NCBI RefSeq assembly: GCF_016653355.1
Contig: NZ_NHSK01000065.1
Location: 1-33,502 of the forward strand
Length of the DNA: 33,502 bases
Source: Rhodoplanes elegans
GTDB lineage: Bacteria > Pseudomonadota > Alphaproteobacteria > Rhizobiales > Xanthobacteraceae
Direction: 5' to 3'
Shown: positions 1-24,906 of the stretch, one piece after another
How the letters are laid out: every line of letters starts with the position of its first letter
Position numbering within the stretch: position 1 is the stretch's first letter
Notes under the pieces: model-generated
Database searches by the model: none
Seen by the model: the letters and a program-made list of their open reading frames with translations, nothing else
Told to the model about the DNA's origin: nothing
Position numbers and translations under genes: made by a program

Positions 1-732
1 GCGGCGCCACCGACCCCCCCGTCGGCGGCCGCCGCCGGCCGCGGCCAGGACGCCGACATCGCCTACTGGAACTCGGTGAAGGACACGGGCGATCCGGCGC
101 AGTTGAAGAGCTATATCGCCGCGTTCCCGAACGGCACCTTCGTGGCCCTCGCCACGCTACGCCTTCAGGAGATCGAGAGCCGTGGCGGCCGGCCGGCCGA
201 CGACCGCAGCAAAGTCGCCGCCCTGCCGCCCGACGGCGGCGTGCCGCCGCGCCCGCGCTCGCCGCGGGAGAACTGCGCGAGCTTCTCGGCGCCGGCCGGC
301 ACCGACCTCTATTGCGCGAGCTCGGTGCTCGATCCGCAGTTCGGCAGCAGCTACGGGGTGCGCAACCTGTTCGGCGGCGATCCCGGCAGCGCCTGGGTCG
401 AAGGCGCCGCGGGCGACGGCACCGGCGAGTGGGTGACGATCGCGTTCGACGGCGAGCGGACGGTGCGCGGCCTCGTCGTCAACAACGGCTACGAGAAGAG
501 CACCGACCTCTACGTCAAGAACGGCCGGGTGCAGATGCTGCGGCTGGTCTTCTCCAACGGCGAGACCCGCAGCGTGACGCTGCAGGACCGGCTCGGCCCG
601 CAGACCGTCACGCTCGACCGTCCGGTGCGCGCCCACTGGGTCCAGCTCGTCATCGACCGCACCTATCGCGGCACCCGCTACACCGACACGGCGATCTCCA
701 AGCTGACGGTGGTTTCGGAGCGGGCGCGGTAG
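1..732 (+). CDS. C-terminal part of a protein ending in a discoidin/NADase-type glycan-binding domain (5' truncated by window)
   Basis: The frame is open from base 1 and has no convincing start inside the window, so the gene begins upstream. The first residues seen are an Ala/Pro-rich linker. A short segment follows (AYWNSVKDTGDPAQLKSYI...FP) of the kind repeated in alphaproteobacterial caspase-like (peptidase C14) proteins. The last 140 residues or so look like a beta-sandwich carbohydrate-binding fold: ASSVLDPQFGSSYGVRNLF, then WVTIAFDGERTVRGLVVNNGY and a C-terminal WVQLVID strand. This resembles the NADase-type glycan-binding/discoidin domain. The enzymatic part, if there is one, lies outside the window, so the overall function is not known. 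A caspase-family protein is the most likely full-length identity, but that is inference from the linker segment. Confidence 0.6.
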   Translation, partial: AAPPTPPSAAAAGRGQDADIAYWNSVKDTGDPAQLKSYIAAFPNGTFVALATLRLQEIESRGGRPADDRSKVAALPPDGGVPPRPRSPRENCASFSAPAGTDLYCASSVLDPQFGSSYGVRNLFGGDPGSAWVEGAAGDGTGEWVTIAFDGERTVRGLVVNNGYEKSTDLYVKNGRVQMLRLVFSNGETRSVTLQDRLGPQTVTLDRPVRAHWVQLVIDRTYRGTRYTDTAISKLTVVSERAR

Positions 733-8712: not shown

Positions 8713-8940
8713 CCTGCAAACTCCGCACCACACAGACTACGCACGCCGCTCGATTACACTCTATTATGGTTGCCGGCGGGTTAATCGTCACCCCCTGCGC
8801 GGAATCCGCGGCGCAACTCCCGCTCAACCTTGACAGACCGTGTGCGGTATCATGGATTCACCGCCGGTTCTGTTCGGCCTCCGATCCCGGATCGGCGGCG
8901 GTCGTCGATCATCGGGGCGAGCCTGCGGAGGACGAGATTC
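8713..8940. promoter_or_regulatory. Divergent promoter region between the gumC-like gene and the GT4 gene
   Basis: A 228-bp gap with an AT-rich core at 8750-8785 (TTACACTCTATTATGG and GGGTTAATCG), unusual in this GC-rich DNA. It most likely carries the promoters of both exopolysaccharide arms. No operator was identified. Confidence 0.4.
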
Positions 8941-10347
8941 ATGGACATGCCGGTTCGGTTGAGAATCGTGCATGTCGTGCGCGCGCCGATCGGCGGCATC
9001 TTCCGCCACGTCTGCGACCTCGCGACCGCCCAGAGCGCCGCCGGCCACACGGTCGGGATCGTCTGCGATTCGCGCACCGGCGGCGACTTCGAGGCGGCGG
9101 CGATCGCCGCCGTGGCCGACCGCCTCGAGCTCGGGGCGACGCGCATGCCGATGCGGCGCGACGTGTCGCCGGCCGATGTCGGCGCCCTGATGCGGCTCAC
9201 CCGCCATATCGGCGCGATGGCGCCCGACGTGATCCACTGCCACGGCGCCAAGGGCGGCGTCTACGGCCGGCTGATCGGCGCTTGGCTCGGCCGGACGCGG
9301 CCGATCGCCGTCCTCTACGCCCCGCACGGCGGCAGCCTGCACTATGCGGTCGGCTCGCTCGAAGGCCGGTTCTACTTCGCCATCGAGCGGGCGCTGGAGC
9401 GGGTCACCGACGCGCTCGTCCATGTCAGCGCCTACGAGGCCGAGACCTATCGCCAGAAGATCGGCCCGCCGCGCTGCCGCGCCGTGGTCATCCACAACGG
9501 CCTGCGCGAGGCCGAGTTCGAGCCGGTGATCCCGCATCCGGACGCCCGCGACCTCCTGTTCCTCGGCATGTATCGCGAGCTGAAAGGAACCGACGTGTTC
9601 CTCGAGGCGATCGCCAAGCTGCAGAGCCGGTTCGGCCGCCGTGCCACGGCCCACCTGTTCGGCCAGGCCGAGGACGAAGGCCGGGCCCGCTACCAGGCTC
9701 TGGCGGAAACGCTAGGCATCACCGACCGGGTGACGTTCCACGATCCCGCCCCGACCCGCGAGGCCTTCGCGTTCGGCCGGTCCGTGGTGGTCCCCTCGCG
9801 GGCCGAGTCGATGCCCTACATCGTGCTGGAGACGATCGCGGCCGGCCTGCCGATCGTCGCCACCCGGGTCGGCGGCATCCCCGAGATCTTTGGGCCGCGC
9901 GCCGGCGAGCTGGTGCCGCCGGGCGATCCCGACGCCCTGGCCGGCGCCCTGCAGGCCCTGCTCGCCGATCCGGTGCGGGCCCAGATCGACGCCGCCGCGC
10001 GCTACGACTGGGTCCGGCCGCGCTTTCACATCGACGCGATGCAGCGCCGCGTCGACGAGCTCTACCGCGAGATCCTGGCCGGCAAGGCGGCGAGGTTCGG
10101 CACGACGGCACCGGGGCGCCCCGCCGTGGAGCCGCGCATCCGGGAGCCGCACAGCGGGGAGCCGCGTCCACCCGCCCCGCCGGCCGCCGAGCCGGACACC
10201 GGCCCGCGCCGCGCGCCCGAGCCCGAGGCGAGAGAGACCCGGGTGGACGCGCCGTCGGCACGGCGTATCCTGGGTCCGCACACGGCCGGGCGACGCGCGG
10301 CCGGACATGCGGGCGGCGGGGCCTTCCGGCTGGTCCCGGCGGTCTAG
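8941..10347 (+). CDS. GT4-family glycosyltransferase
   Basis: A GT-B retaining glycosyltransferase that adds a sugar to a lipid-linked glycan on the cytoplasmic face. The N-terminal acceptor domain starts RIVHVVRAPIGGIFRHV. The C-terminal nucleotide-sugar domain shows LLFLGMYRELKGTDVFLEA and the E-x7-E motif ESMPYIVLE, followed by TRVGGIPEIFG. The start ATG at 8941 is preceded by GGAGG with 9-nt spacing. After about residue 380 comes a tail of some 85 residues rich in Pro, Arg and Glu that lies outside the normal GT4 fold and looks disordered. It heads a run of plus-strand genes with the polyprenyl phosphotransferase and the ligase. The sugar specificity cannot be read from sequence. Confidence 0.9.
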   Translation: MDMPVRLRIVHVVRAPIGGIFRHVCDLATAQSAAGHTVGIVCDSRTGGDFEAAAIAAVADRLELGATRMPMRRDVSPADVGALMRLTRHIGAMAPDVIHCHGAKGGVYGRLIGAWLGRTRPIAVLYAPHGGSLHYAVGSLEGRFYFAIERALERVTDALVHVSAYEAETYRQKIGPPRCRAVVIHNGLREAEFEPVIPHPDARDLLFLGMYRELKGTDVFLEAIAKLQSRFGRRATAHLFGQAEDEGRARYQALAETLGITDRVTFHDPAPTREAFAFGRSVVVPSRAESMPYIVLETIAAGLPIVATRVGGIPEIFGPRAGELVPPGDPDALAGALQALLADPVRAQIDAAARYDWVRPRFHIDAMQRRVDELYREILAGKAARFGTTAPGRPAVEPRIREPHSGEPRPPAPPAAEPDTGPRRAPEPEARETRVDAPSARRILGPHTAGRRAAGHAGGGAFRLVPAV

Positions 10348-10495
10348 TCGTCGTTTACCAGTTTATGTGAATGCCGCGCGAGAAGCGTCGACGTTTACGC
10401 GACCGTGGCCATTTTTACCTATGCCGGAAGCGGAACGACGGCGGGCCGTCGCGGCCGTCGTGCGGCCGGCTCCGCAGCCCCCCGGAGGCATCGAC
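10348..10495. promoter_or_regulatory. Gap before the polyprenyl glycosylphosphotransferase gene
   Basis: 148 bp containing relatively AT-rich pieces (GTTTACCAGTTTATGTGAATG at 10354-10374 in part, and CCATTTTTACCTATG). They could form a secondary promoter for the two downstream genes. The evidence is composition only. Confidence 0.3.
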
Positions 10496-12019
10496 ATGGC
10501 GATCGCAGCTCCACCGATGAACGGCACTCCGCCCGGCCGCCCCGGAAGCCATTCGGCCGTCCCGCGCGAGCTGGGACCGCTGGCCCGCAAGATCGCCGAG
10601 GAGCCGATCGCCGACGCCATCTCGCCCGTCGTGCTGACCGGCGTCGCCCGCATCGTCGAGTTCGTGCTGGTGGTGCTCACCGGTGCCGCCGTGCATGCCG
10701 TGTGGCTCTACCCGAGCGAGGGCTTCGAGCCGATCTACCTGATCATCGAGCTCGCCGTCGCGACGGCCGCGATCCTCGCCTTCCAGATGGTCGACATCTA
10801 CAACGTGCAGGCGTTCCGCTCGCACGTCTATCAGCTCGGTCGGCTGTGGGTGGCGTGGACGGCCGTGTTCCTGATCGCGCTCGCGCTCTCATTCTTCGCC
10901 AAGCACGAGTACTTCTTCTCCCGCGCCTGGACGGCCGGCTGGTACGTCACCGGCATGGTGGTGCTGTTCGCCTTTCGGATCGGCCTCGGCTGGCTGGTGC
11001 GGCACTGGGCCGACCAGGGTCGGCTGATCCGGCGCGTCGTGATCGTCGGCGGTGGCCGCGAGGGCGAGGCCCTGGTGCGCGCCATCGGCGCCGAGGCGCA
11101 TTCGGACCTGCGCATCTGCGGCGTGTTCGACGACCGCGGCGACGACCGCTCGCCCTCGGTGGTGGCCGGCGTGCCGAAGCTCGGCACCGTCGACGACCTC
11201 GTCGAGTTCACCCGCCGCACCCGCGTCGACCTGATCCTGGTGTCGCTGCCGCTCACCGCGGAAGACCGCGTGCTGCAGATGGCGCGCAAGCTGTGGGTGC
11301 TGCCCGTGGACGTGCGGCTCGCCGCCCACATGAACCGGCTGCGCTTCCGGCCGCGCGCCTATTCCTACATCGGCAACATCCCGGTGCTGGACATCTTCGA
11401 CAAGCCGATCGCCGACTGGAACCTGGTGATCAAGTCGGTGTTCGACCGTGTCGCCGCGTTCCTGATCCTGGTCGCGATCTCGCCCGTGATGCTCGCGACC
11501 GCGCTCGCCATCAAGCTCGACAGCAAGGGGCCGGTGTTCTTCAAGCAGCGCCGGCTGGGCTTCAACAACGAGGTGATCGAGGTCTACAAGTTCCGCTCGT
11601 TGCGCCACGAGCACTCCGATCCCGATGCCAAGCGGGTCGTCACCAAGGGCGACGACCGCGTCACCCGGGTCGGGCGGTTCATCCGCAAGACCTCGATCGA
11701 CGAGCTGCCGCAGCTCATCAACGTGCTGCGCGGCGATCTCTCGCTGGTCGGGCCCCGGCCGCACGCCATCCACGCGCCGCTCGCCAACAAGCTGTGGGAC
11801 GACGTGGTCGACGGCTACTTCGCGCGCCACCGGGTGAAACCCGGCATCACCGGCTGGGCGCAGATCAACGGCTGGCGCGGCGAGCTCGACACGCCCGAGA
11901 AGCTGCAGCAGCGCGTCGAGCACGACCTCTACTACATCGAGAACTGGTCGCTGCTGTTCGACCTCTACATCCTGCTGCGCACCCCCTTCGCACTCCTCGA
12001 GACGGAGAACGCGTATTGA
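10496..12019 (+). CDS. Undecaprenyl-phosphate glycosylphosphotransferase (WcaJ/ExoY-like initiating enzyme)
   Basis: A 507-residue membrane enzyme that transfers a sugar phosphate, commonly glucose-1-P, from the nucleotide sugar to undecaprenyl phosphate, the first step of exopolysaccharide repeat assembly. It has about four N-terminal helices, then a nucleotide-binding-like CoA_binding_3 part (RRVVIVGGGREGEALVRAI), a fifth hydrophobic segment, and the catalytic bacterial sugar transferase domain. That domain shows FFKQRRLGF, YKFRSL, the DE pair in SIDELPQLINVLRGDLSLVG, PRPH, and KPGITGWAQINGWRG. The start ATG has GGAGG 7 nt upstream. The gene overlaps the next by 4 nt, so the two are probably translationally coupled. 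Confidence 0.94.
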   Translation: MAIAAPPMNGTPPGRPGSHSAVPRELGPLARKIAEEPIADAISPVVLTGVARIVEFVLVVLTGAAVHAVWLYPSEGFEPIYLIIELAVATAAILAFQMVDIYNVQAFRSHVYQLGRLWVAWTAVFLIALALSFFAKHEYFFSRAWTAGWYVTGMVVLFAFRIGLGWLVRHWADQGRLIRRVVIVGGGREGEALVRAIGAEAHSDLRICGVFDDRGDDRSPSVVAGVPKLGTVDDLVEFTRRTRVDLILVSLPLTAEDRVLQMARKLWVLPVDVRLAAHMNRLRFRPRAYSYIGNIPVLDIFDKPIADWNLVIKSVFDRVAAFLILVAISPVMLATALAIKLDSKGPVFFKQRRLGFNNEVIEVYKFRSLRHEHSDPDAKRVVTKGDDRVTRVGRFIRKTSIDELPQLINVLRGDLSLVGPRPHAIHAPLANKLWDDVVDGYFARHRVKPGITGWAQINGWRGELDTPEKLQQRVEHDLYYIENWSLLFDLYILLRTPFALLETENAY

Positions 12020-13335
12020 GCGCGATCGACTCGCCGCTCTCCGGTCCGCTGCCCGGCCCGGCCGGGATGCCGGCGGCCGGGATGCCGGCGGCCGGGAGGC
12101 CGGCGAGCGTCACGTCGGGGGTGGAGCGGCTGCGCCTCGCGCTGATCTTCATGATCGCCTTCACCAGCGGCTTCGTGCAGCGCGAGCCGGCCCCCTACGA
12201 GCTGATCACGTCGATCGCCATCGTGGTGTTCGCCGCGACCGGGCTGACGCTGCGGGCGACGCTGCTGCCGCTGCTCAGCCTCCTGGTGCTCCAGAACATC
12301 GGCTATCTCGTCTCGCTGATGCCGGTGATCACCCTCGAGCGCACCGCGATGTGGACGGCGGTGACGAGCTTCCTGTCGATCTCGACGCTGTTCTTCGCCA
12401 TGGTGCTGTCGCAGAACACGGCGCAGCGCCTCGACATGCTGATCCGCGGCTATATCGGGGCCGCGCTCGTCACCGCGGCGATCGCGATCCTCGCCTTCTT
12501 CCGCGTGCTGCCCGGCTACGACCAGTTCCTGCTGTACGACCGCGCCGCCTCGACCTTCAAGGACCCCAACGTGTTCGGGCCGTTCCTGGTGCTGCCCGGG
12601 CTGGTGCTGCTGCAGCGCATGGTCTCGGCGCGCGATCTGCGCCGGCTCCTCGCCGACGGGCTCAAGCTCCTGGTGATCGCGGCCGGCCTCCTGCTCACCT
12701 TCTCGCGCGGCGCGTGGGGGCACTTCACCGTGTCGGCGATCGTGATGCTGGGGCTCACCTACGTCACCACGCGCTCGGCGAGCGACCGCTTCCGCATCAC
12801 CTTCGTGTCGGTGATCGGGGTCGTCGTGCTGGCCGGCCTCGTGCTCCTTCTGCTGTCGTTCGACGTGGTCGGCGACATGTTCAAGGTGCGCGCCAATCTG
12901 GTGCAGGACTACGACGCCGGCGCGCAGGGCCGGTTCGGTCGCCACATCGCCGGCGCCCTCCTGGTCTTCGAGCTGCCGTGGGGCATCGGGCCGCTGCAGT
13001 TCTCCAAGGAGTTCTCGTACGAGCCGCACAACTCGCTGATCAGCGCGTTCATGAACGGCGGCTGGATCGCCGGCACGACCTGGCTCGCCCTGACCGTGCT
13101 GACGCTGGTGATCGGGCTGCGCCACGCCTTCGTGCGCACGCCCTGGCAGCCGATCTTCATCGCCGCCTACGCGACCTTCATCGGCGAGGTCGGCGAGAGC
13201 TGGATCATCGACGTGGCGCACTGGCGCCACTACTTCCTCATCATGGGGATCGTCTGGGGCCTGATCGCAGCGGGCCGTGTCGCCCCGCCGCAGGCCGATC
13301 AGGCGGCGTATCGCCGACCGCCGCCGGGCGTGTGA
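12016..13335 (+). CDS. O-antigen ligase/Wzy-type polymerase family protein
   Basis: A 439-residue multi-spanning membrane protein of the Wzy/WaaL family (PF04932-like). It polymerises or ligates lipid-linked repeat units in the periplasm. Family marks are LLLTFSRGAWGHF, a periplasmic loop with GRFGRHIAGALLVF, and the PHNSLI motif before the last helices. In an exopolysaccharide locus with no lipid A core genes, polymerase is the more likely role. I place the start at TTG 12016, overlapping the upstream TGA as TTGA with GGAG 8 nt before it. A later GTG at 12121 (VERLRLALIF) is the main alternative. The N-terminus carries a three-fold AGMPA repeat. Confidence 0.85.
   Translation: MSAIDSPLSGPLPGPAGMPAAGMPAAGRPASVTSGVERLRLALIFMIAFTSGFVQREPAPYELITSIAIVVFAATGLTLRATLLPLLSLLVLQNIGYLVSLMPVITLERTAMWTAVTSFLSISTLFFAMVLSQNTAQRLDMLIRGYIGAALVTAAIAILAFFRVLPGYDQFLLYDRAASTFKDPNVFGPFLVLPGLVLLQRMVSARDLRRLLADGLKLLVIAAGLLLTFSRGAWGHFTVSAIVMLGLTYVTTRSASDRFRITFVSVIGVVVLAGLVLLLLSFDVVGDMFKVRANLVQDYDAGAQGRFGRHIAGALLVFELPWGIGPLQFSKEFSYEPHNSLISAFMNGGWIAGTTWLALTVLTLVIGLRHAFVRTPWQPIFIAAYATFIGEVGESWIIDVAHWRHYFLIMGIVWGLIAAGRVAPPQADQAAYRRPPPGV
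12061..12105 (+). repeat. Three tandem 15-bp repeats inside the Wzy-like gene
   Basis: The unit GCCGGGATGCCGGCG is repeated exactly twice, followed by a third copy with one change (T to G). It keeps the reading frame and encodes AGMPA-AGMPA-AGRPA in the cytoplasmic N-terminus. Confidence 0.85.
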
Positions 13336-14840: not shown

Positions 14841-14918
14841 CGGAGCGTAGCGCAGCCCGGTTAGCGCACCAGTCTGGGGGACTGGGGGTCGAGAGTTCAA
14901 ATCTCTCCGCTCCGACCA
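14841..14918 (+). tRNA. tRNA-Pro(GGG)
   Basis: A full cloverleaf can be folded by eye. The acceptor stem is CGGAGCG/CGCTCCG with discriminator A and an encoded CCA. The D arm is GCGC/GCGC, the anticodon stem CCAGT/ACTGG, the loop CTGGGGG (anticodon GGG at 14876-14878), and the T stem GAGAG/CTCTC with loop TTCAAAT. Its 3' part is shared with the direct repeat that marks the left end of an integrated element. The gene is still intact because the repeat restores the 3' half. Confidence 0.96.
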
Positions 14919-14926
14919 TCAACCCC
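14872..14926 (+). repeat. attL-like direct repeat (3' half of tRNA-Pro)
   Basis: 55 bp identical to 18566-18620, starting in the 5' anticodon stem and running through the CCA end into the following ATCAACCCC. After it, 97 more bases (14927-15023) match 18621-18717 without gaps at roughly 89%, so the duplication is 152 bp in all. Confidence 0.92.
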
Positions 14927-14939
14927 GTTGATATTGTTC
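14918..14939 (+). terminator. Hairpin directly after tRNA-Pro
   Basis: A perfect 6-bp stem ATCAAC/GTTGAT with a CCC loop is followed by ATTGTTCT. The stem is short and the T-run impure, so this is a modest intrinsic terminator candidate. The equivalent site in the right repeat (18612 onward) keeps only a 5-bp stem. Confidence 0.45.
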
Positions 14940-15067
14940 TCGAATTGGCGCAGCCGGCGGGACGCGGCGCGCGAACAACACAGAACGAAACGGCCCCAAA
15001 GCCCCGAATTCGGGACACAGAGTGCCCGGAATAGTCCCGGCAGCTCGCCGACATCGACGACAACGAC

Positions 15068-15874
15068 GTGGCGAAGCTGGTCGCCTGGCGCCGCGGCCAG
15101 TGCCGCAAGCTCGCCGCCAAGGCACCGCTGATCGCACCGGCCACCGTCAACCGCTCCACCACGCAGGTTCTCCAACGCATCTTCACCCGCGGCCGCAAGG
15201 TGTGGCGCATCCCGCTGCCGAAGGAGCCGCACTGGCGTCAGCACATGTTGCGCGAGCCCGAAGAGCGCATCCGCGAACTGCGCCAGGACGAGGACCAGGC
15301 CCTCACGGCCGTGATGGACCCGGACTACGAGGTGCTCCGCGCCTTCTCGATCGCCTCCGGACTTCGCATGCGGGAAAGCCTGCTCAGGTGGTCGCAGGTG
15401 GACTTCGCCGCCGGCGTGGTGATCACGGTCGGCAAAGGCGGCAAGACGATCCGCATGCCGATGACCACGACCATGCGCCGCATGCTGATGTCACGGAAGG
15501 ACCACCACGCCGAGTTCGTGTTCACCTATCGCGTTAAGCGCACTCGCGCAGACCGCTGTCGCGGCGAGCGCCGCCCAATCACCATCCAGGGCTTGAAGGC
15601 CCACTGGCGCCGCTGCCGGAAGAAGGCCGGCGTCGCCGACTATCGCTGGCACGACAACCGCCACACCTTCGCAACTAGCCTGCTCCGCGCCACCGGAAAC
15701 CTGAAGCTGGTCCATAATGCGCTCCACCACGCCCGGATCGAGACCACGACGAAGTACGCCCACGTTCTTGACGACGAGTTGCGGGCCGGGATGGAAAAGG
15801 CGGATCGGCGACGGCAACCTGGCACTCGTCGTAGGATGCCAAAATGGCGAGCTACCTCCTCCAACGCGAGCTAA
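15068..15874 (+). CDS. Tyrosine recombinase (site-specific integrase), N-terminally truncated
   Basis: Catalyses integration and excision at the tRNA-Pro site. The catalytic domain is complete: the first Arg in SGLRMRESLLRW, the Lys in VGKGGKTIRMP, HDNRHTFATSLLR (His and second Arg), the second His in LHHARIETT, and the nucleophile Tyr in TKYAHV. The family is normally some 340 residues or more. Here only 268 remain from a GTG at 15068, and family-like sequence (RQLADIDDND) extends upstream only to an in-frame TAG at 15032-15034. That lies just past the end of the extended repeat (15023), so most of the DNA-core-binding domain is missing. G+C is high, unlike the downstream cargo. Activity is doubtful. 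Confidence 0.85.
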   Translation: MAKLVAWRRGQCRKLAAKAPLIAPATVNRSTTQVLQRIFTRGRKVWRIPLPKEPHWRQHMLREPEERIRELRQDEDQALTAVMDPDYEVLRAFSIASGLRMRESLLRWSQVDFAAGVVITVGKGGKTIRMPMTTTMRRMLMSRKDHHAEFVFTYRVKRTRADRCRGERRPITIQGLKAHWRRCRKKAGVADYRWHDNRHTFATSLLRATGNLKLVHNALHHARIETTTKYAHVLDDELRAGMEKADRRRQPGTRRRMPKWRATSSNAS

Positions 15875-15993: not shown

Positions 15994-17076
15994 ATGGCCG
16001 AAGTTATTTACAATTCGCCCAATAGATTGAAGGTCGGAAGGGGCTTACCCGTTCGCGTGAACCTCAGTTTTGGGGTCGAGAAGCCAACAGCCACCTCAAG
16101 AGAGAGAGAAAAAGTCGCACGAATATTAGCTAGGGAGCTTCGCCCTGACCTGTTGATGGACTTAAGCGTTCACAAAACCGCCCCAGAACCGTGGGTGCAT
16201 ATTCGTAATATATTTGATGGTCCAATTGGTATTTTGCCACACTATCTATTGTTCTCTGATACACACGGACTTTGCGAAGACTCTCTCCTCGAACGCATTA
16301 AGTCAGTCACTTCGTCAGGCATCAACTTCATCACTGTTCATTGTTCCCCGACTCATCAGCTAATGGAGCTTGCACGACAGAAAAGGAAAACTCCAGTCAC
16401 AAGCCGCGGAGGGAGCATTGTCATCCGCGATATGCTGATCAATAGACGCAGCGAAAACATCTACTCCAAGATGTTTGATGAAATATGTGACGTGGCCCAA
16501 CAAACCGGCACCGTCGTAAATCTCGGAACCGCTTTCCGGTCCGCGTCCGTTGCCGATGGATTAGATGAGGTTGTGAAAGAGGAGCTAATAATTCAAACGG
16601 AATACATTGATCGCGCAAGAAGCAAGGGAATACAGATTGTGCTTGAGGGGCCAGGTCACATCCCATTAGGGCAGTTGACTGAATATTGGCAGCTGATCGA
16701 ACCACTTAACGTTTCACCAATGCCACTTGGCCCAATTGTAACTGACCGTTTTCCTGTGGGAGACCACATTTCAAGTTCTATTAACGTGGCCTACTTAATG
16801 AGTCTTAGCCAAGGCGGCATCATAAACGCAATTACCGCAGTTGAGCATCAAGGTGGAGTCCCAAGTTTCCATCACACCTTTGCGGGCTTACAGGCCGCGC
16901 TAATAGCTGCACAGGCTGCATCCTTGAACTACTGCCAAGACGCCTTTCACGAAGAGCAAGTCATTGCGGACCGACGCGCCGATCGACAAAGTTGCGTTCT
17001 GGACAGCGCGTCGGCAGGGTGCACCAGGTGTGAAAAGATCTGCCCGCTCATCCATTCTAATTATCCTTCAGGCTGA
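15994..17076 (+). CDS. Short, divergent ThiC-family (phosphomethylpyrimidine synthase-like) radical SAM protein
   Basis: Canonical ThiC converts the purine intermediate AIR to HMP-phosphate using SAM and a [4Fe-4S] cluster; the related BzaF makes hydroxybenzimidazole from AIR. Shared landmarks in order: VNLSFGVE and LLMDLSVHKT, GPIGILPHY, FITVHCS, TSRGGSI, FDEICDVAQQTGTVVNLGTA, IVLEGPGHIPL (conserved His), LGPIVTDRFPVGDHISSSI (conserved His) and AVEHQGG. The C-terminal cysteine motif is CTRCEKIC (CX2CX3C) plus an extra upstream Cys. At 360 aa it is much shorter than ThiC (430-640) and lacks the N-terminal part with ARGDVTQM-type sequence. G+C is about half. It is followed after 14 bp by an unknown gene, not by thiamin genes. 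Family membership is well supported; the product is unknown. Confidence 0.82.
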   Translation: MAEVIYNSPNRLKVGRGLPVRVNLSFGVEKPTATSREREKVARILARELRPDLLMDLSVHKTAPEPWVHIRNIFDGPIGILPHYLLFSDTHGLCEDSLLERIKSVTSSGINFITVHCSPTHQLMELARQKRKTPVTSRGGSIVIRDMLINRRSENIYSKMFDEICDVAQQTGTVVNLGTAFRSASVADGLDEVVKEELIIQTEYIDRARSKGIQIVLEGPGHIPLGQLTEYWQLIEPLNVSPMPLGPIVTDRFPVGDHISSSINVAYLMSLSQGGIINAITAVEHQGGVPSFHHTFAGLQAALIAAQAASLNYCQDAFHEEQVIADRRADRQSCVLDSASAGCTRCEKICPLIHSNYPSG

Positions 17077-17090
17077 AATGGATTCAGCTA

Positions 17091-18365
17091 ATGCTGTACC
17101 CCAACACGCAAGCTCCCATTTATATGGGAACAGCAGACAATGCAGCACAACATAGCGACCCTACAGCAGAGAAGCGACTTATCTTCGAGGTTGTTGTTTT
17201 ATCTATAATGGGCTTTAGAACGTTCCTAGGAACACCGTTTCTCTGGCAATCTCAACCGTCTCTATCGGTCGTCACAAGCTATCAAGCAGCATTTGACGAC
17301 CCTTCGATTGGCCCAAGCTTAACAAGCCGGCCCGGCATGCAAACGGCGGATGATTATTTTCGAGAACGCGAGGCTGACACCTCCCTTCCAAAGGCCCTTA
17401 ATCTAAGACCAAACAGCGCCTTTGCTGCGGAGCAACCAGGCGCCAGCGCTCTTGATTGGAGAAGCCTTATTGGTCCCAAGATACGCGTTGTTCCTCGGTA
17501 CGGCAGCGTGGAAACCGAGTTCAAAGCTTTGGTTTTGAAAGACACCGAGGCTCTCAGAGATAGAAGAAGCATTCGACAGGTTTCCGCTGTTGGCTTCTCA
17601 GCTCCCTTCAGCTGCAGAGGCCGCAACCTTACAGACTATCACATGCTTTCGTTAGCCGAACGAAGTTATCGGGGCCATTTCAGCCGCGCAACCATTGAGG
17701 ATGAACTTGTTAAATCTGGATTACAAGTTGGATCGCTGAATGCCGCCCTGGCCCGGACGACGGCTCTCTATCAATTAGCAAACGGCCTAGCTCACCGAGC
17801 CTCGCTTTTCACTAGCTCTACATTATTCTCTGTAATGCCGAGCCAGTCCGAACTACCCGTGATTCACCGTTGGAGCGTTAGCCCCATGAATCCGTATCTA
17901 TTTGCAGAGGTCCTAAACACGATCGGCGTCAAGCAGAGCTCTTGGATTTCCATTTCAGAATCTAAGATTAGCCAAATTTGTACGACGTACAACCCACTTC
18001 GATTATTCGCCCTTTACTATCGAGAGCATCTAACGGACCAACTATATCAATGGCAAGAAAGTACTGGCTTGCCCACGTTCTGGGAGGCAAAGAGAAGACT
18101 GAGCTGGAGCCTGCTACGAGACAACGAATGGAGTATTTTGGACCCCATTTCGAAACTCCCCGACAGAAAATACGATTCAATGATCGCCGGCGTCGCAGGC
18201 GTTGCAGTGGGCGCGCCGTTTGGCGCAGATCCAATGCGATCGTTTAGCGCTGCACGAACAGTAGCGCAGACAGGTTATAGCGTAATCGAGGCACTGCCTT
18301 TTTTCGATGCGCTGCGCTTAAGGGCAAATCTTAAGCGGTATGTCCATGAAATTGGCTTAATATAA
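17091..18365 (+). CDS. Hypothetical protein, partner of the ThiC-like gene on the island
   Basis: A 424-residue protein I cannot assign to any family. It starts 14 bp after the ThiC-like stop, so the two are probably one transcript. It appears soluble, with only moderately hydrophobic patches (LIFEVVVLSIMGFRTFLG near residue 35 and SMIAGVAGVAVGAPFG near 375). It has few cysteines and no visible P-loop, Rossmann, helicase or nuclease motif. The middle part (KDTEALRDRRSIRQVSAVGF and a helical ANGLAHRASLF region) and a C-terminal helix-rich section look like a genuine folded protein. Low G+C and codon use match the ThiC-like gene, not the host. The ATG at 17091 is the first in frame; internal ATGs such as the one giving MGTADNAAQ are possible. 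Confidence 0.7.
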   Translation: MLYPNTQAPIYMGTADNAAQHSDPTAEKRLIFEVVVLSIMGFRTFLGTPFLWQSQPSLSVVTSYQAAFDDPSIGPSLTSRPGMQTADDYFREREADTSLPKALNLRPNSAFAAEQPGASALDWRSLIGPKIRVVPRYGSVETEFKALVLKDTEALRDRRSIRQVSAVGFSAPFSCRGRNLTDYHMLSLAERSYRGHFSRATIEDELVKSGLQVGSLNAALARTTALYQLANGLAHRASLFTSSTLFSVMPSQSELPVIHRWSVSPMNPYLFAEVLNTIGVKQSSWISISESKISQICTTYNPLRLFALYYREHLTDQLYQWQESTGLPTFWEAKRRLSWSLLRDNEWSILDPISKLPDRKYDSMIAGVAGVAVGAPFGADPMRSFSAARTVAQTGYSVIEALPFFDALRLRANLKRYVHEIGLI

Positions 18366-18565
18366 CCACATCGCCGTCAGCTCGCGCGGATGCGCCCACG
18401 CCGACGCTCTTTCAGTCAACCGCGAACTGTAGTCCTCCCGCCTAGGACGATTAAAATGCCGATCCGGACAGCCGGCGAACTAAACTCCCGAAATCAGTCC
18501 CGAAGAAACCACGCCCCTAACCCCAACCCATTGGTTGCGTAGCATTGTTTTGAACACGTTGTCCC
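18366..18565. other. Non-coding right part of the island
   Basis: 200 bp after the last cargo gene, with mixed base composition and no supported gene. It lies between the cargo stop and the right-hand direct repeat and may hold recombinase-binding arm sites, but no repeated arm motif was found by eye. Confidence 0.4.
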
Positions 18566-18620
18566 GTCTGGGGGACTGGGGGTCGAGAGTTCAAATCTCT
18601 CCGCTCCGACCATCAACCCC
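18566..18620 (+). repeat. attR-like direct repeat (partial tRNA-Pro copy)
   Basis: Identical over 55 bp to 14872-14926. The sequence upstream of it is not tRNA, so this is a 3' fragment only and not a second tRNA. The imperfect match to the left copy continues for 97 bp, to 18717. Confidence 0.92.
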
Positions 18621-18837
18621 ATTGATTTGATTATCGAATTCGCGCCGGCGGCGGGACGCGGCGCGCGAACAACACAGAACGAAACGACCCCAAAGCCCCG
18701 AACTCGGGACGCAGAGTCCCGAGACCTCTTTAACGGCGTTCGCCAGATTGTCCGGTGCGAGAGCGACTGCCGTCGACGCGACGAGCCGGGGAGAACGGCG
18801 GTAAGCGCCGCCCCGGCCGAATCCGGCGCGAGCGGGA
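18621..18837. other. Chromosomal flank between the island and pqqE
   Basis: 217 bp without a gene. The first 97 bp are the imperfect counterpart of 14927-15023. The remainder is GC-rich again and leads to the pqqE stop codon. It includes GCGGTAAGCGCCGC-type inverted bits that could help end the pqq transcript, though not a clear terminator. Confidence 0.4.
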
Positions 18838-19908
18838 TCAGCCGCGCCAGCGGATCGGGGCGTCGTCGGTTCCCGTGGCGAGGTCGGCGACGATGGCGTG
18901 GTGCGGCGAGAGCCGGCAGGCCGGATCGGTGGCACGCGCGTCGCCGGTGAGCGCGAGCGCCTGGCACCGGCAGCCGCCGAAGTCGCGGTCGCGCCACGCG
19001 CAGCTCGCGCACGGCTCGCGCATCCAGTCGGTGCCGCGGAACGCCGCGAAGGCCGGCGACGCCCGCCAGATGCGGTCGAGCGGCTGGTCGCGCACCGACC
19101 AGAACGCCAGCCCCGGAATGGTCTGCGCGGCATGGCACGGCAGCACCAGGCCGGACGGCGTCACGTTCAGCGACCGGCGCCCCCAGCCGCCGAGGCACGG
19201 CTTCGCCAGGCCGGCGTGGTGGTCCGGCATCACGGCCTCGACGATCAGACGGCCGCGCACGGCCTCGCGCGCCGCCTCGAGCGCGACGCGAGCGGCGGCG
19301 ACCTGATCGGGCGTCGGCATCAGGGCGGAGCGGTTGGCCAGCGCCCAGCCGTGATACTGCGCGTGGGCGATCTCGACGCGTCCGGCACCGAGCGCCGCGG
19401 CGAGCCCGACGATCGCCGGAATGCGGCCGATATTGCCGCGGTGGATCACGCAATTCACGGTGAGCGGCAGGCCGAGCCGGACGGCTTCCTCGGCGAGCCG
19501 GCGCTTGCGCGCGAACGCCCCCGGCCGGCGGGCGATGCGATCCGCCTCGCCCGGGTCGACGTCCTGGATCGAGACCTGGACGTGATCGAGGCCGGCCGCG
19601 ACGAGCGCGGCGAGCCGCTGCTCGGTGAGACCGACCGCCGACGTGATCAGGTTGGTATAGAGGCCGGCCGCCCTTGCGGCGGCGACGAGGTCGACCAGAT
19701 CGGGACGGAGCGCCGGCTCCCCGCCCGACAGATGGAGCTGGAGAACACCGAGCGCCCCAGCCTCGTGAAAGACCCGGCGCCAGGTCGCGGTGTCGAGCTC
19801 GTCGGCGCGCGGCTCGAGCGCGAGCGGGTTGGAGCAGTAGGGGCAGCCGAGCGGACAGCGATGCGTCAGCTCCGCGAGCAGCCCCAGCGGCGCCGGCAGG
19901 GTGTCCAC
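18838..19908 (-). CDS. pqqE: PqqE, PqqA peptide cyclase (radical SAM/SPASM)
   Basis: Forms the carbon-carbon bond between the conserved Glu and Tyr of the PqqA peptide, the first chemical step of PQQ synthesis. The radical SAM motif CPLGCPYC (CX3CX2C, Cys18/22/25) is followed by LSGGEPALR. The SPASM region has CLGGWGRRSLNVTPSGLVLPCH and then CASCAWRDRDFGGCRC with a later C. I chose GTG 19908, one base after the pqqD TGA, which gives a 356-aa protein of normal size. It is the last gene of the minus-strand gcd-pqqABCDE run, about 220 bp from the island's right end. All expected cysteines appear present. Confidence 0.95.
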   Translation of the reverse strand: MDTLPAPLGLLAELTHRCPLGCPYCSNPLALEPRADELDTATWRRVFHEAGALGVLQLHLSGGEPALRPDLVDLVAAARAAGLYTNLITSAVGLTEQRLAALVAAGLDHVQVSIQDVDPGEADRIARRPGAFARKRRLAEEAVRLGLPLTVNCVIHRGNIGRIPAIVGLAAALGAGRVEIAHAQYHGWALANRSALMPTPDQVAAARVALEAAREAVRGRLIVEAVMPDHHAGLAKPCLGGWGRRSLNVTPSGLVLPCHAAQTIPGLAFWSVRDQPLDRIWRASPAFAAFRGTDWMREPCASCAWRDRDFGGCRCQALALTGDARATDPACRLSPHHAIVADLATGTDDAPIRWRG

Positions 19909-19909
19909 G

Positions 19910-20197
19910 TCACAGATCCACGAGGTGCTTGTCGGCGAGCGCCCGCAGCAGCGTCGCGACATCGCCCGCGATCCTTTCGCGCGGGGCCTGATAGAGGCTC
20001 GCAAGGGCGTCGACGAGCTCGGTCATGGTCGCACTGCCGTCGCAACGCCCGAGGATGTCGGCGGCGACGGGGTCGAGCTTCAGAATCCGCTCGGGCGCGA
20101 GCAGCACCGGGCCGCCATGCGCCGCGCTGCTCGTCAGCCGCACGCCGCGGGCGAGCCGCGGCCGCGCATCCGCCGGAACCGTGCGCTCCTCCGTCAT
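19910..20197 (-). CDS. pqqD: PqqD, PqqA-binding peptide chaperone
   Basis: A 95-residue winged-helix-like chaperone that binds PqqA and presents it to PqqE. Family features are RPRLARGVRL near residue 12, ILKLDPVAADIL and a C-terminal DVATLLRALADKHLVDL. ATG 20197 overlaps the pqqC stop as ATGA, and pqqE starts one base after its own stop. The gene is intact. Confidence 0.95.
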   Translation of the reverse strand: MTEERTVPADARPRLARGVRLTSSAAHGGPVLLAPERILKLDPVAADILGRCDGSATMTELVDALASLYQAPRERIAGDVATLLRALADKHLVDL

Positions 20198-20991
20198 CTC
20201 GCCTCCGCGACGACGGAAGCGCCGGTGTCACGGGCCTCCGGCACGAAGGCGTCGGGCGGGATGTGGCCCGGAGTCACATAGGCCGCGTAGAGCGCGTCGA
20301 GCATTGTCCACAGCACCTCGCACTTGAACACCAGCGCGTCCTGGACCTGCCGCTGCAGCACCGGCGTGGTCGCGTGCGCCTTGACGTAGCGAAGCGCGAA
20401 CGCGCTGTCGCGCGACGCCTGCGGCGGCCGCGCCTGGAAGTAGGCGAGGGTCTCCGGCGTCACGAAGTCGTAGTGCTTCAGCATGCCGTCGATGCGCTCG
20501 CCGATGACGACGGGCGAGAACAGCTCGGTGAGCGAAGACGCGATCGCCTCCAGGAGCGACCGGCTGCGGACGAAATCCAGATAGGCGAGGGCCGCGAACC
20601 GGCTCGCCGGCAACGCCTACGTCTGCGAGACGACGGTCTCGCGGGCGAGGCCGAGGCCGTCGGTCAGCATCAGCCAGCGGGCGAGACCGCCCTCGCCTCC
20701 TCGTTCGTCGCCACCCTCGCCCTCCTGGTTTTCGCTGCCGCCGTCGTGATCGACCAGCCGGCTGCGCCAGACCCGCCGCACCGCCGGGTCGTCGCAGCGG
20801 GCGATCAGGGCGGCGTCCTTGAGCGGGATCACGGCCTGGTAGCAGTAGCGGTTGAGCGCCCAGGCCTGGACCTGCCCGCGACTGCAACGGCCGCCGTGCA
20901 GCATCCGGTGGAATGGATGGCGATCGTGATAACGACGCGCGCCGATGTCACGCAGCGCGGCCTCGAACGCATCGGGCGACAGCGCCGTCAC
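20194..20991 (-). pseudogene. pqqC: pqqC (PQQ synthase, final oxidase) interrupted by an in-frame TAG
   Basis: PqqC catalyses the last step: ring closure and eight-electron oxidation of AHQQ to PQQ. The frame starts at GTG 20991 (GTGA overlap with the pqqB stop). It reads 124 residues including RRYHDRHPFHRMLHGG and RYCYQAVIPLKDA, meets TAG at 20619-20617, then continues in the same frame for 140 residues (ALPASRFAALAYLDFVR, ASSLTELFSP, ALRYVKAHA) to a TGA overlapping pqqD. Together they give 264 residues, close to the usual 250. The stop falls in the well-conserved SQ..LPATRF region. The DHDGG-GGLARW loop carries an acidic, Gly-rich insertion. No frameshift is needed. A point nonsense mutation, a sequencing error or amber readthrough are all possible. 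Confidence 0.88.
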
Positions 20992-21884
20992 GGCACGATC
21001 TCCAGGCCATCATGCGCGACCTGCCAGCCTGCTCGCTCCACGGTGCGACGCTCGGCCGAGTCCTCGATCAGGATCGGATTGGTGTTGTTGATGTGGAGAT
21101 AGACACGGCGGCCGGAGAGCCCCGCGAGTGCGGCGAGCGAGCCGTCCGGCCCGGCGATCGGCATGTGTCCCATCCGTCGCCCGGTCTTTCGTCCGGTTCC
21201 AGTCGTGATCATCTCGTCGTCGGTGAACACGGTGCCGTCGAGGAGCACCAGGTCGACCGCCGCCAGCGCCTCGCGAACGATCGGCGTGACCGCGGCGATC
21301 TCGGGCACGAAGGCGAGCTTTCGGCCATGCGCCGCGACGATCACGCCGATCACGTCCGATGCCGTGTCCGCGTCATCGCCCTCGAGGTAGAGCGGCCGCT
21401 TGCCCGGAACCGGAAAGCTCTCGATCACGAGGCCGCCCGGGCCGGCGACGCGCCCGGGCGCCGGCAGGGCTCGGCGCGCCACGCGGTCGGCCGGAAGCGC
21501 ATCGAACATCGGGTTGGCGTCGAGCGCGGCCAGCGTCGCCGCGTCGGCGAACAAGTCGAAGCCGTGCCCCTCGCGCATGTGGAGAAGGCCCGCCATCTGG
21601 TCGATCTCGGCACCGGTCAGGGCCACGGCGGCGATCGGGCTGTCGCGCAGACCCTCGCCGTCGCGCGGCGCCAGCGCCGGAGTCGCCAGAATCTGCGCGC
21701 GCAGATCGGGCGAAGCGTTGAGCAGCATCCAGGCATCGCCGTCGGCCGTCACCGCGACCGAGGTCTGGGTGCGCGGCCGCACCCTTCCCTCGCGCGCCGC
21801 CGCACAAACACGGCAGCGGCAGTTCCACTGCGGCACGCCGCCGCCCGCGGCCGAGCCGAGCACGATCGCGGTCAGCCCCGGCAC
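20988..21884 (-). CDS. pqqB: PqqB, metallo-beta-lactamase-fold hydroxylase of PQQ synthesis
   Basis: PqqB hydroxylates the tyrosine-derived part of the excised Glu-Tyr dipeptide. The hallmark start is VPGLTAIVLGSAAGGGVPQW followed by NCRCRVC, and the protein ends with VYLHINNTNPIL and GWQVAHDGLEI. The variant metal site TGAEIDQMAGLLHMREG is in the expected place. I chose GTG 21884 (298 aa) because the next family-like residues follow at once and it lies 8 nt after the pqqA stop. Upstream in-frame residues are just pqqA read in another frame. Confidence 0.94.
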   Translation of the reverse strand: MPGLTAIVLGSAAGGGVPQWNCRCRVCAAAREGRVRPRTQTSVAVTADGDAWMLLNASPDLRAQILATPALAPRDGEGLRDSPIAAVALTGAEIDQMAGLLHMREGHGFDLFADAATLAALDANPMFDALPADRVARRALPAPGRVAGPGGLVIESFPVPGKRPLYLEGDDADTASDVIGVIVAAHGRKLAFVPEIAAVTPIVREALAAVDLVLLDGTVFTDDEMITTGTGRKTGRRMGHMPIAGPDGSLAALAGLSGRRVYLHINNTNPILIEDSAERRTVERAGWQVAHDGLEIVP

Positions 21885-21892
21885 GCCTTCGC

Positions 21893-21982
21893 TCAGATTT
21901 CGGGCGGCAGATAGCCGTTGATCTCGAGGCCGATGCAGATCTCGACGAAGCGCGGCGTCGTCCAGGCAGTCTTGGAAGTCAT
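21893..21982 (-). CDS. pqqA: PqqA, PQQ precursor peptide
   Basis: A 29-residue peptide whose Glu and Tyr side chains become PQQ. The sequence starts MTSKTAWTTPRFVEICIGLE and ends INGYLPPEI. The conserved E-x3-Y pair (Glu20, Tyr24) is present and in register. It has a good ribosome-binding site (GAGAGGA, 8-nt spacing). The start overlaps the gcd stop as ATGA, and pqqB begins 8 nt downstream. Too short for routine gene callers. Confidence 0.96.
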   Translation of the reverse strand: MTSKTAWTTPRFVEICIGLEINGYLPPEI

Positions 21983-24744
21983 GATCGTGGTCCTCTCGTG
22001 GTGTATGCGGCCGGAGCCGACCGGCCGCCGCGGCAATCGAATCGCAACAACGAAACCCCGACCCCGGTTCCGGTGCCGGGTTCGCTCCGGCGCGGATCGA
22101 CCTGCTCACAGGGCCGCGGTCGATCGCCGGGCCGCTCGGTCACGGCCCTTCGTTCTCCCGCTCCGGCGAGCTGCCGGAACTGCGCTCGCGCCGGCGCGCC
22201 GGTGAGATCGGGCTTTCCGTCGTCGAGCGCGTAGACCTTCAGATAATCGCCCTGGGTCGTCTCGAAGCGCGCATGTCCGGTCGCCGTGATGGCGACATAT
22301 TGCCGTCCGTCGTGCTCGTAGCTCATCACGCCGGCCTGGCCGCCGGCCGGCAGCCGGGCTTCCCACAGCAGGCGGCCGGTCGTGGTCTCGAAGGCGCGCA
22401 GGAAATTGTCCTGGGCGGCGGCGATGAAGGTCAGCCCGCCCGCCGTCATCAGCGGGCCGCCGAGATTCGCCGTGCCCATGGTGATCTTGACGCGCGTCGG
22501 GATGCCCAGCGGCCCGGCATCGAAGCCGGTGCCGAGCGGCTTCGACCAGACGAGCTCGCCGGTGTCGATGTTGGTGGCGGCGATGAAGCCCCACGGCGGC
22601 GCCAGGCAGGGCACGTTCAGGATCGACAGCCACATCGGACGGTTCACGCCGAACGGCGTGCCCGAATGCGGCGCGATCGGCTGGTCCGGACGCGCCCCGC
22701 CGGAGCCCACCGGCCGGTCCTGGACCTCGGCGCGCGGCGTCATGTCGACGATGTTCGGCAGCCGCGAGTAGTTGGCGACGACCAGCCGGCGCACCGGATC
22801 GAAGCCAAGCCCGCCCCAGTTCATGCCGCCGACCGTGCCGGGCAGCAGCACCATGCCTTTCGCATCGACGGTGGGCGGCGTGAACATGCCGTCATAGCGG
22901 CGGGAGTGAAAGCCGATGCGGCACAGCGCGGCGTCGATCGGCGTGAGGCCCCAGATGTGGCGGCCGTCGATGCGCTCCGGCGTCGGCCCCGGCACGCCGC
23001 CGAGATTGGGGTAGAAGACCGAGCGCGGCTGCGTCGGCGAGAGGCGCTCGCCGGGCAGCTTGCCCTCCTGCGGCACCGCCTGGTGGAGCACCTGGCGCAG
23101 CGGCTCACCCGTCGCAGCGTCAAGGAGAAACAGGTCGCCGCCCTTCGTCCCCTGCAGCACGGCGCGGCGCATCGCGCCGTCGACCGGCACGTCGACCAGC
23201 ATCGGCTGGGCGCCGAGGTCGTAGTCCCAGAGATCGTGCTCGACCGTGGTGAACGACCAGCGCGTGACGCCGGTCGCGAGATCGACCGCGACCACGGCCG
23301 CGGTGAAGCGGTCCTCCTCGGCGGTGCGGTTGCCACCCCAGTGGTCGGCGCCCGCATTGCCGGTGCCGAGGAACGCGAGGCCGAGCGACTCGTCGGCCGA
23401 GACGACGTTCCAGACATTGGGCGTGCCGCGCGGATAGATCTCGCCCGGCGCCAGCGGCGCCTGCGGGTCGGGGCGCAGCGCGTCCCAGGCCCAGCGCAGC
23501 GCGCCCGTCCGGGCGTCATAGGCGCGCACCACGCCGGAGGGCGCGTCGCGGCGCTGGTTGTCGCTGACCTGCTGGCCGACGATCAGCAGACCGCCGGCGA
23601 CCGTCGCGCCCGAGGTGTTGGAGGCGAAGCCGCTCTCGCGCAGGCCCATGCCTTCGGTGAGATCGACGGTGCCGCTCTCGCCGAAGTCGCGGCAGACGAA
23701 GCCCCCGACCGCGTCGAGCGCGATCAAGCGCCCGTCCGCGGTGGCGACATAGACGCGGCGATGGCAGTTGCTGCCGCCGCGCGGCAGCGGCCCCATCACG
23801 CCCGGAACCGCCGGCATCCGGTCGACCGCCTCAGGCCGGCCGGCCGGATCGCCGTCGTCGAAATAGGCGACCGCGCGGCACGCGGCGCTGAACAGCGACT
23901 CCATGGTGCGCGACGGGACCTGCGGGTCGAAGTGCCAGCGCACCTCGCCGGTCCCCGGATCGAGGGCGTGGACCTGATTGCTGCTGGTGCAGGTGTAGAT
24001 GAGATCGCCGGCCTTGATCGGCGTGTTCTGCGACGAGTAGAAGACGCGGCCCTCGCCCGGATTGAGATCACCACTGCGGAACGTCCACGCCTCGCGCAGC
24101 CCGCTCACATTGCCGGCGTGGATCTGCGACAGGGTCGAGTAGCGCCGCCCGAGCGTCGTGCCGCCGAAAGCGGGCCACTCGCGACCGGCATCGCGCGCCG
24201 GCGCGGCCGTGTCGCCTTCGGCCGGCGGCTCGGCGATCCCGACGCCCGTAGTCTCCGCCGGCGCGGCGGCCACCTCCTCGGTGCGCTCCCAGTGGACCGC
24301 CACGACGGCCACGAGGGCGACGACCGCGGCCGTGACACCGACGACGGTGGCGCGCCGCCAGACGCTGCGCGGCGGCGTCCGCCACAGCACGAAGGCGATC
24401 GCCGCGGCGACGACCAGTCCTGTCACGACGCCCAGGCGGCCGGCGAGATCGAAGCCCCAGGCCGGCATCCAGCCCTTGCCGGCGATCTCGTAGAGCGACC
24501 AGGCGAGCGTGAGCAGCAGCGCCGACGCGAAGGCGAGCAAGGCGAGCCGCTCTCGCCGCATCCAGGCGAGCACGCCACCGGCGAGCAGAAGCAGGCCGGC
24601 GATCACGTAATACGCCGTCCCGCCGAGGGTCACGAGGTGGACGCCGAGGGCCGCGGTCGCGAGTCCGAGGAGCGCCAGCAGCGACGCCACGATCAGATAG
24701 ACCCATCGCCAGGCCCAGTGCCCAGCCGTCGCCATGCGGTCCAT
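21979..24744 (-). CDS. gcd: Membrane-bound PQQ-dependent glucose dehydrogenase (Gcd) with a C-terminal extension
   Basis: Oxidises glucose to gluconolactone in the periplasm and passes electrons to ubiquinone. About five N-terminal membrane helices (residues 10-165) precede an eight-bladed PQQ propeller starting at REWPAFGGTTLGRRYSTLSQI. Visible sites include SSNQVHALDPGTGEVRWHFDP, EHDLWDYDLGAQP (active-site Asp region), LQGTKGGDLFLLD (PQQ-contacting Lys region) and the closing GGQAGVMSYEHDGRQYVAI. The start ATG at 24744 has GAGGAG 5 nt upstream. The family normally ends near GDYLKVYAL. Here 81 further residues rich in Arg, Pro and Gly run on to a TGA inside the pqqA start codon. At 921 aa it is longer than the usual 800 or so. 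Confidence 0.95.
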   Translation of the reverse strand: MDRMATAGHWAWRWVYLIVASLLALLGLATAALGVHLVTLGGTAYYVIAGLLLLAGGVLAWMRRERLALLAFASALLLTLAWSLYEIAGKGWMPAWGFDLAGRLGVVTGLVVAAAIAFVLWRTPPRSVWRRATVVGVTAAVVALVAVVAVHWERTEEVAAAPAETTGVGIAEPPAEGDTAAPARDAGREWPAFGGTTLGRRYSTLSQIHAGNVSGLREAWTFRSGDLNPGEGRVFYSSQNTPIKAGDLIYTCTSSNQVHALDPGTGEVRWHFDPQVPSRTMESLFSAACRAVAYFDDGDPAGRPEAVDRMPAVPGVMGPLPRGGSNCHRRVYVATADGRLIALDAVGGFVCRDFGESGTVDLTEGMGLRESGFASNTSGATVAGGLLIVGQQVSDNQRRDAPSGVVRAYDARTGALRWAWDALRPDPQAPLAPGEIYPRGTPNVWNVVSADESLGLAFLGTGNAGADHWGGNRTAEEDRFTAAVVAVDLATGVTRWSFTTVEHDLWDYDLGAQPMLVDVPVDGAMRRAVLQGTKGGDLFLLDAATGEPLRQVLHQAVPQEGKLPGERLSPTQPRSVFYPNLGGVPGPTPERIDGRHIWGLTPIDAALCRIGFHSRRYDGMFTPPTVDAKGMVLLPGTVGGMNWGGLGFDPVRRLVVANYSRLPNIVDMTPRAEVQDRPVGSGGARPDQPIAPHSGTPFGVNRPMWLSILNVPCLAPPWGFIAATNIDTGELVWSKPLGTGFDAGPLGIPTRVKITMGTANLGGPLMTAGGLTFIAAAQDNFLRAFETTTGRLLWEARLPAGGQAGVMSYEHDGRQYVAITATGHARFETTQGDYLKVYALDDGKPDLTGAPARAQFRQLAGAGERRAVTERPGDRPRPCEQVDPRRSEPGTGTGVGVSLLRFDCRGGRSAPAAYTTRGPRS

Positions 24745-24906
24745 TCGATCTCCTCGCATTGTTGGTTCGTCCGCCAGATGAACACCGTCGGCCGGTCGTC
24801 CGTTTTGCGACACCGCGCTTCGACCAGTCGAACAGGGATCAGTCCTGCCGGCGCAATACCGGGTCGGAGGAGGCCCGCACGCGGCGGGATCGATCGGGTC
24901 GGGCGT

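Follow-up and report, generated by a model that had tools for sequence, protein, structure and literature searches.

The Locus and Its Flanks

The window (the whole stretch of Rhodoplanes elegans DNA that was analysed, 33,502 nt) carries, on its forward strand, a tRNA-Pro (GGG) gene at positions 14841–14918, recognized both by ARAGORN and by the Rfam tRNA model (62.3 bits), that has served as an integration site. The 3' part of this gene, along with 108 nt past the tRNA, makes up the left copy (14869–15026, +) of a 158-nt direct repeat, and the right copy, 92% identical to the left, is found at 18563–18720 on the same strand. Between the two copies lie three coding features, all in forward orientation: the catalytic domain of a tyrosine recombinase (15068–15874; PF00589, 79.4 bits, profile positions 4–170 of 172), a gene for a ThiC-fold radical SAM-type protein of 360 aa, termed P0001 (15994–17076), identified through Pfam, PDB, and Foldseek, and, 14 nt downstream of the latter, a gene for an orphan protein of 424 aa, termed P0002 (17091–18365). 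No third genomic copy of the repeat was reported, with 40 of 238 first-look candidates scored. The G+C contents are 0.492 for P0001 and 0.502 for P0002 (0.496 and 0.489, respectively, at third codon positions), versus 0.664 for the integrase, 0.674 for the host thiC, and 0.697 and 0.745 for two neighbor genes, and the third-position values are 0.855–0.953 in the integrase, pqqE, a methyltransferase gene, and the host thiC. By the repeat, the integrase, the shift in composition, and the absence of the cargo from relatives, the insert is a tRNA-integrated genomic island. A previous, sequence-only reading had taken P0001 for transferred cargo of an island at tRNA-Pro, pointing to a G+C of about one half in a chromosome of about 70%, and this is borne out by the same four lines of evidence, the absence holding for four genus mates. 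The present mobility of the island is doubtful, as the N-terminal part of the recombinase is missing or very short (71 aa precede the domain). At both borders the repeat extends 108 nt beyond the tRNA end (14919–15026 and 18613–18720), which exceeds the usual attachment repeat, and two related elements may lie here in tandem. Scans for promoters and terminators did no better on the real sequence than on shuffled ones.

Five other genomes of the genus were searched. The tRNA region was matched in four of them, and the fifth, 58% complete, gave no match there. In the four matched regions (L044–L047), the tRNA and some 40–90 nt before it are conserved, the match stops at 14919–14920, and neither P0001 nor P0002 is encoded (blastp). 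For the 148 nt past the tRNA, only matches of 13–26 nt (E of 0.008–0.05) were seen in these four and in two further mate regions. One of the mates (L044, genome G053) carries a different insertion at the same tRNA. The end of the tRNA recurs there about 1.2 kb further on (L044:6428–6482), as a 55-nt copy with 98% identity to the right repeat of the window, and thus this tRNA-Pro site seems to be a hot spot for integration. In two of the four mates, the tRNA again adjoins the methyltransferase gene that lies on its left in the window; L044 has the order of the window, and in L045 (L045:7168–8313, genome G079) tRNA-Pro is reversed relative to that gene. The DNA to the right of the insert (from 18828) is matched in two mates, on contigs separate from the tRNA contigs. 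With the pqqE region of two mates residing on a contig other than that of tRNA-Pro, the linkage of tRNA and pqq genes seen at present may be a rearranged one.

As to the further surroundings, a Pfam scan of 34 window frames gave family matches for 16, many of the rest being probably not genes, and, P0001 aside, we recognized no cobamide gene and no thiamin gene among the 34. The sole other match with a thiamin label, TENA/THI-4/PQQC (20194–20613, −), is to be read as pqqC, since it is located between PqqD (Pfam; 19910–20197, −) and a beta-lactamase-fold gene (Pfam; 20988–22109, −; PqqB by position) beside pqqE, and so the earlier remark that P0001 is not near thiamin genes stands. The right flank (18838–24813, −), which starts just past the border, is occupied by the pqq cluster (PqqE, 505 bits), followed by a PQQ-dependent dehydrogenase. 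To the left of the island (8830–13335, +) there are glycosyltransferase and Wzy-type ligase genes, probably for a cell-surface polysaccharide, and at the left end of the window (76–732, +) there is an F5/8 type C domain of the NADase_transloc family (95.5 bits). The tRNA is the sole Rfam match in the window at gathering scores, with no riboswitch found. The host genome encodes a separate, full ThiC (614.8 bits), associated with a TPP riboswitch (RF00059, 61.4 bits), as had been anticipated for a host of this type, and each of the four mates has one ThiC match (93–99 bits, in frames of 653–725 aa). A TPP riboswitch or a thiamin gene context is common for thiC genes, without being strictly required.

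Relation of P0001 to the ThiC Family

The start codon of P0001 is ATG, and its frame is open for just 19 codons further upstream (379 aa). The protein matches the Pfam model ThiC_Rad_SAM (PF01964) at 182.3 bits (cut-off 25; E = 1.8e-53) over profile positions 50–375 of 420, approximately the first 50 positions being absent, and it carries the motifs SRGGSI (residues 137–142), VNLGTA, EGPGHIP, GDHIS, and EHQGG, along with C-terminal cysteines at positions 343, 346, and 350. The description of a 360-aa frame with these landmarks, lacking the usual N-terminal part, is therefore upheld by both sequence and Pfam; the protein had also been called short, and while the N-terminal loss is real, part of the shortness is normal for the ThiC type of about 430 aa. 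The CX2CX3C spacing of the cysteines was considered as an unusual trait and dropped, as it is also found in short-type ThiCs (L021, L029–L031), and no use was made of a Fer4_6 hit on the triplet, a weak one at 14 bits (cut-off 25).

A sequence search of the PDB with P0001 returned ThiC chains only (Arabidopsis, Caulobacter), and its long matches to ThiCs show an identity of about 28–33%. P0001 falls below all the ThiC equivalog cut-offs (NF009895, 179.8 versus 410 bits; TIGR00190, 164.8 versus 460 bits; NF006763, 123.3 versus 650 bits), and with TIGR04386, the model for B12 lower-ligand enzymes (BzaB/BzaF), it scores 131.8 bits versus a cut-off of 700. The AlphaFold model of P0001 (six sequences; mean pLDDT 61.7, pTM 0.67) finds ThiC entries at Foldseek ranks 1–13, with an rmsd on ThiC of about 9–10 Å. 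The pLDDT is below 50 in residues 244–260, 273–291, and 331–360, and for this reason the placement of Y449, C483, and the cluster positions, discussed below, rests on sequence alignment. In a maximum-likelihood tree (33 rows, without BzaF), P0001 sits on a saturated branch of length 10, outside both the long and the short ThiC groups, the supports of which are moderate (80/78 and 86/55, respectively). The tree supports a great distance of P0001 from these groups, its exact place there being not trustworthy.

Active-Site Residues

P0001 was aligned with 32 ThiCs (26 long, 5 short, 1 unassigned), among which relatives of the host are over-represented and several are near-copies of each other. 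The rows were filtered for EGPGH and EH[LQ], with no given locus failing the filter, which in itself accounts in part for the invariance of E422, H426, E489, and H490. Numbering is that of AtThiC, carried over by matching E422 to chain index 354, upon which D383, R386, H426, Y449, E489, and H490 match the respective letters. The roles of the residues follow Fenwick et al. (2015; PMC4389238) and a 2024 paper in ACS Cent Sci (PMC11117688), as far as the available portions of both describe them. C474 of CcThiC was converted to 483 through the offset of 9 given for two histidines in the available part of PMC11117688, and of the cluster cysteines, Cys573 is named in the available text of the source paper, the other two being assigned by alignment.

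All of the 20 positions compared are invariant in the 32 ThiCs, save four cluster-loop positions that are missing from one partial sequence. P0001 keeps the six phosphate contacts (6/6: Y84, H116, S137, R138, G139, R182), E422 (its E218, contacting the ribose), three of the four SAM contacts (G27, L57, E284), the metal ligands (H222, H285), and all three cluster cysteines (C343, C346, C350), amounting to 15 of 16 positions in this set. The one SAM contact lost is M572, which sandwiches the SAM adenine (PMC4389238 and PMC11117688, available portions) and is replaced by R345. None is kept, on the other hand, of the four residues that contact the AIR ring or the 3'-hydroxyl, or do late chemistry, according to the available text of the same papers: N228 corresponds to S25, D383 to T179, Y449 to a gap, and C483 to N278, each of the four being invariant in 32/32 ThiCs. 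Retention of 15 out of 16 is above the general level, as P0001 overall agrees with ThiC in 59 of the 103 near-invariant columns and departs from it in 44 (43%). Were five losses to fall at random among the 20 positions, the chance of hitting all four would be 5/4845, or about 0.001, a figure from hand arithmetic that is a guide only, the grouping into kept and lost having been made after the residues were seen.

Mutants of characterized ThiCs are informative in this respect. AtThiC D383A consumes the substrate and forms only a shunt product, with no HMP-P, AtThiC D383N retains partial activity, and CcThiC C474S yielded a trapped shunt product, the cysteine being called essential (PMC11117688, in its available part); in the available portions of PMC11117688 and PMC4389238, we found no variant examined with Thr in place of D383 or with Ser in place of N228. 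Given the loss of N228, D383, Y449, and C483, and given the behavior of AtThiC D383A, synthesis of HMP-P by P0001 is unlikely. As judged by its sequence, P0001 belongs to the ThiC fold family (Pfam) but lacks some of the catalytic features of ThiC proper for which it was tested.

P0001 also has Gly in its GDHI motif, at a position where Tyr is present in all the ThiC rows compared but one (L019), and, with Y449 lost as well, the ring pocket may open to a different base. L019 itself, from a contig of Burkholderia multivorans WS-FJ9, is an ordinary ThiC except that the Tyr of YDHI is Gly, which is either a real variant or a sequence error. A family relative (L052, genome G058) has, besides its first ThiC frame, another of 486 aa, with the catalytic residues kept in the alignment.

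Distribution of the Two Cargo Genes

Exact peptide patterns of P0001 recovered 57 stretches from contigs of 84,980 species and one stretch from viral contigs, none of them from a relative, and two other searches of viral contigs returned the same four ThiCs, at 28–32% identity. Plasmid matches (376 records) were all below 60% identity, with none covering 80% of the query, and the best identity among the matches listed (40 of 376) was 32.6%; ten phage records matched at 27–31%. In sampled genome sets, which overlap, the best other match was at 109 bits and 33% identity (149 genomes), one other match, to an ordinary ThiC (G307), was present among 398 genomes (E ≤ 1e-33), and only P0001 itself was matched among 385 genomes (E ≤ 1e-34). 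A degenerate DNA pattern for GP..TD..PxGDHI had no match in viral contigs and a single one in genome contigs, the Burkholderia multivorans ThiC mentioned above. Peptide and DNA patterns need local identity and could overlook more remote members of the subfamily; a search of 229 genomes used a profile in which ordinary ThiC predominated and says nothing on closeness to P0001.

Nothing in Pfam (with E up to 10), NCBIfam, PADLOC, PHROGs, or PDB matches P0002, which has no relative in plasmids, phages, or viral contigs (the latter searched by peptide patterns) and none in sampled genome sets of 149 and 357. In a set of 299 genomes one other match was seen, at 19.1 bits and with two stop codons, and was taken as chance. 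The AlphaFold model of P0002 is unusable (pLDDT 35.1). A glycine-rich stretch, IAGVAGVAVGAPFGAD, is present at residues 365–380 (18183–18230 of the window), and this faintly resembles the beginning of ADP-ribosylglycohydrolases, a likeness that no Pfam model supports. P0002 is probably the partner of P0001, as suggested by the 14-nt spacing and the shared composition, and the two genes are probably co-transcribed.

Overall, no close relative of P0001 or P0002 and no second island with the pair were found in the collections searched (genome contigs, viral, phage, and plasmid sequences, and sampled genomes). Literature searches, in which 'thic' also matches 'thick,' produced no recognizable published description of such a case, and the ThiC in the available text of PMC3887049 is the thiamin biosynthesis enzyme. 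With one sequence and no relatives, selection on P0001 cannot be measured.

Proposed Function and Alternatives

We lean, with somewhat more confidence than doubt, toward P0001 being a highly diverged ThiC-fold radical SAM enzyme that would act on another 5'-phosphorylated substrate, give a product other than HMP-P, function together with P0002, and have arrived through integration at tRNA-Pro. Radical chemistry, a phosphorylated substrate, and the partnership with P0002 are all predictions from the sequences. In the mechanism that we envisage, P0001 would generate a 5'-deoxyadenosyl radical by means of SAM, a [4Fe-4S] cluster near its C-terminus, and an additional metal bound by His, the 5'-phosphate of the substrate would be held in the ThiC phosphate pocket, and hydrogen would probably be abstracted at the carbon adjoining the 5'-phosphate, as it is by ThiC at C5' of AIR. 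The substrate is probably not AIR and the product probably not HMP-P, since the residues for imidazole contact and for the late cascade leading to HMP-P are gone; another 5'-phosphorylated nucleotide or sugar would be a probable substrate, and P0002 probably takes part in the process.

Of what the sequence-only reading had proposed, foreign cargo, a second thiC in the genome, and a role other than HMP-P synthesis all hold up, the last being probable and now resting on the loss of D383, N228, Y449, and C483, a stronger support than was offered originally. Two of its suggestions have lost ground, AIR as the substrate, with the residues contacting the AIR imidazole gone, and the comparison with BzaF, for reasons of model score given below. 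A bolder proposal, which we make tentatively and to which we attach somewhat less confidence than an even prospect, is that the island carries a mobile two-gene module for an undescribed class of ThiC-fold reaction, in which P0001 would rearrange a phosphorylated nucleotide other than AIR into a new small molecule or a modified nucleotide.

The loss of 43% of the near-invariant columns could also reflect relaxed constraint, and an inactive, decaying ThiC-like gene carried by the island as a relic would be in agreement with the shortened ends, the 44 of 103 near-invariant columns changed, the loss of M572, and the integrase without its N-terminal part. We consider such a relic unlikely, as the frame of P0001 is fully open and another complete frame comes after it, and as the losses do not look random, with 15 of 16 positions kept in one set versus 0 of 4 among those for the imidazole, the 3'-hydroxyl, and the late steps.

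Viperins make a modified nucleotide, and a two-gene defense or conflict system may be imagined in which P0001 would make a modified nucleotide and P0002 would be an effector or a modifier. The cargo of two genes in a tRNA island, one of them an orphan partner, the narrow spread, and a phosphate pocket that would suit a nucleotide are consistent with this scenario, which we nevertheless find quite unlikely, considering that PADLOC reported nothing beyond a weak BrxA match (13.1 bits, E = 0.015) and that a second island with the pair was not encountered in the searches.

That P0001 is an ordinary HMP-P synthase despite its divergence, encoded by a spare thiC acquired horizontally, appears very unlikely. 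It does belong to the same Pfam family and does keep three of the four SAM contacts together with the residues for the phosphate, the metal, and the cluster, and the partial activity of AtThiC D383N suggests that position 383 is not wholly strict (PMC11117688, available part). However, D383, N228, Y449, and the catalytic cysteine are lost, AtThiC D383A makes no HMP-P (same source, same part), the equivalog cut-offs are missed, a host thiC with a TPP riboswitch is already present, and the window has neither a riboswitch (Rfam) nor a thiamin gene (34 frames). Finally, conversion of AIR to a benzimidazole by a BzaF/BzaB-like enzyme, brought to mind by the other named function in the family, the formation of 5-hydroxybenzimidazole from AIR by BzaF (PMC11117688, available part), is highly improbable in view of the 131.8 bits versus 700 with TIGR04386, a comparison by model score only, of the lack of a cobamide gene among the frames scanned, and of the loss of the imidazole-contact residues.

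Comparison with Known Systems

If P0001 is, as we favor, a diverged ThiC-fold enzyme with another phosphorylated substrate, then the ThiC fold would be re-usable on other substrates, and a natural variant that keeps the radical and phosphate parts but drops the residues for the imidazole and the late steps would separate the two halves of the mechanism. Among known systems, BzaB/BzaF (TIGR04386) belong to the same superfamily as P0001 and show by example that a paralogue of ThiC can form a different product; the TIGR04386 cut-off was reached in none of the four records scanned. The short-type ThiCs (L021, of Acetoanaerobium noterae, and L029–L031, from viral contigs) have the CX2CX3C spacing and a short N-terminus in common with P0001, but they keep the 20 active-site positions and score 616–672 bits with NF009895, versus 179.8 for P0001. 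From the ThiC HMP-P synthase (TIGR00190, NF009895, NF006763; structures 4s25–4s29, 4n7q, 3epm–3epo, and 4s2a for comparison), P0001 differs in being without the residues for the imidazole, the 3'-hydroxyl, and the late chemistry, in missing about the first 50 profile positions, and in a shorter stretch before the cluster, and with it P0001 shares the fold, the phosphate pocket, most of the SAM contacts, the metal ligands, and the three-cysteine cluster loop.
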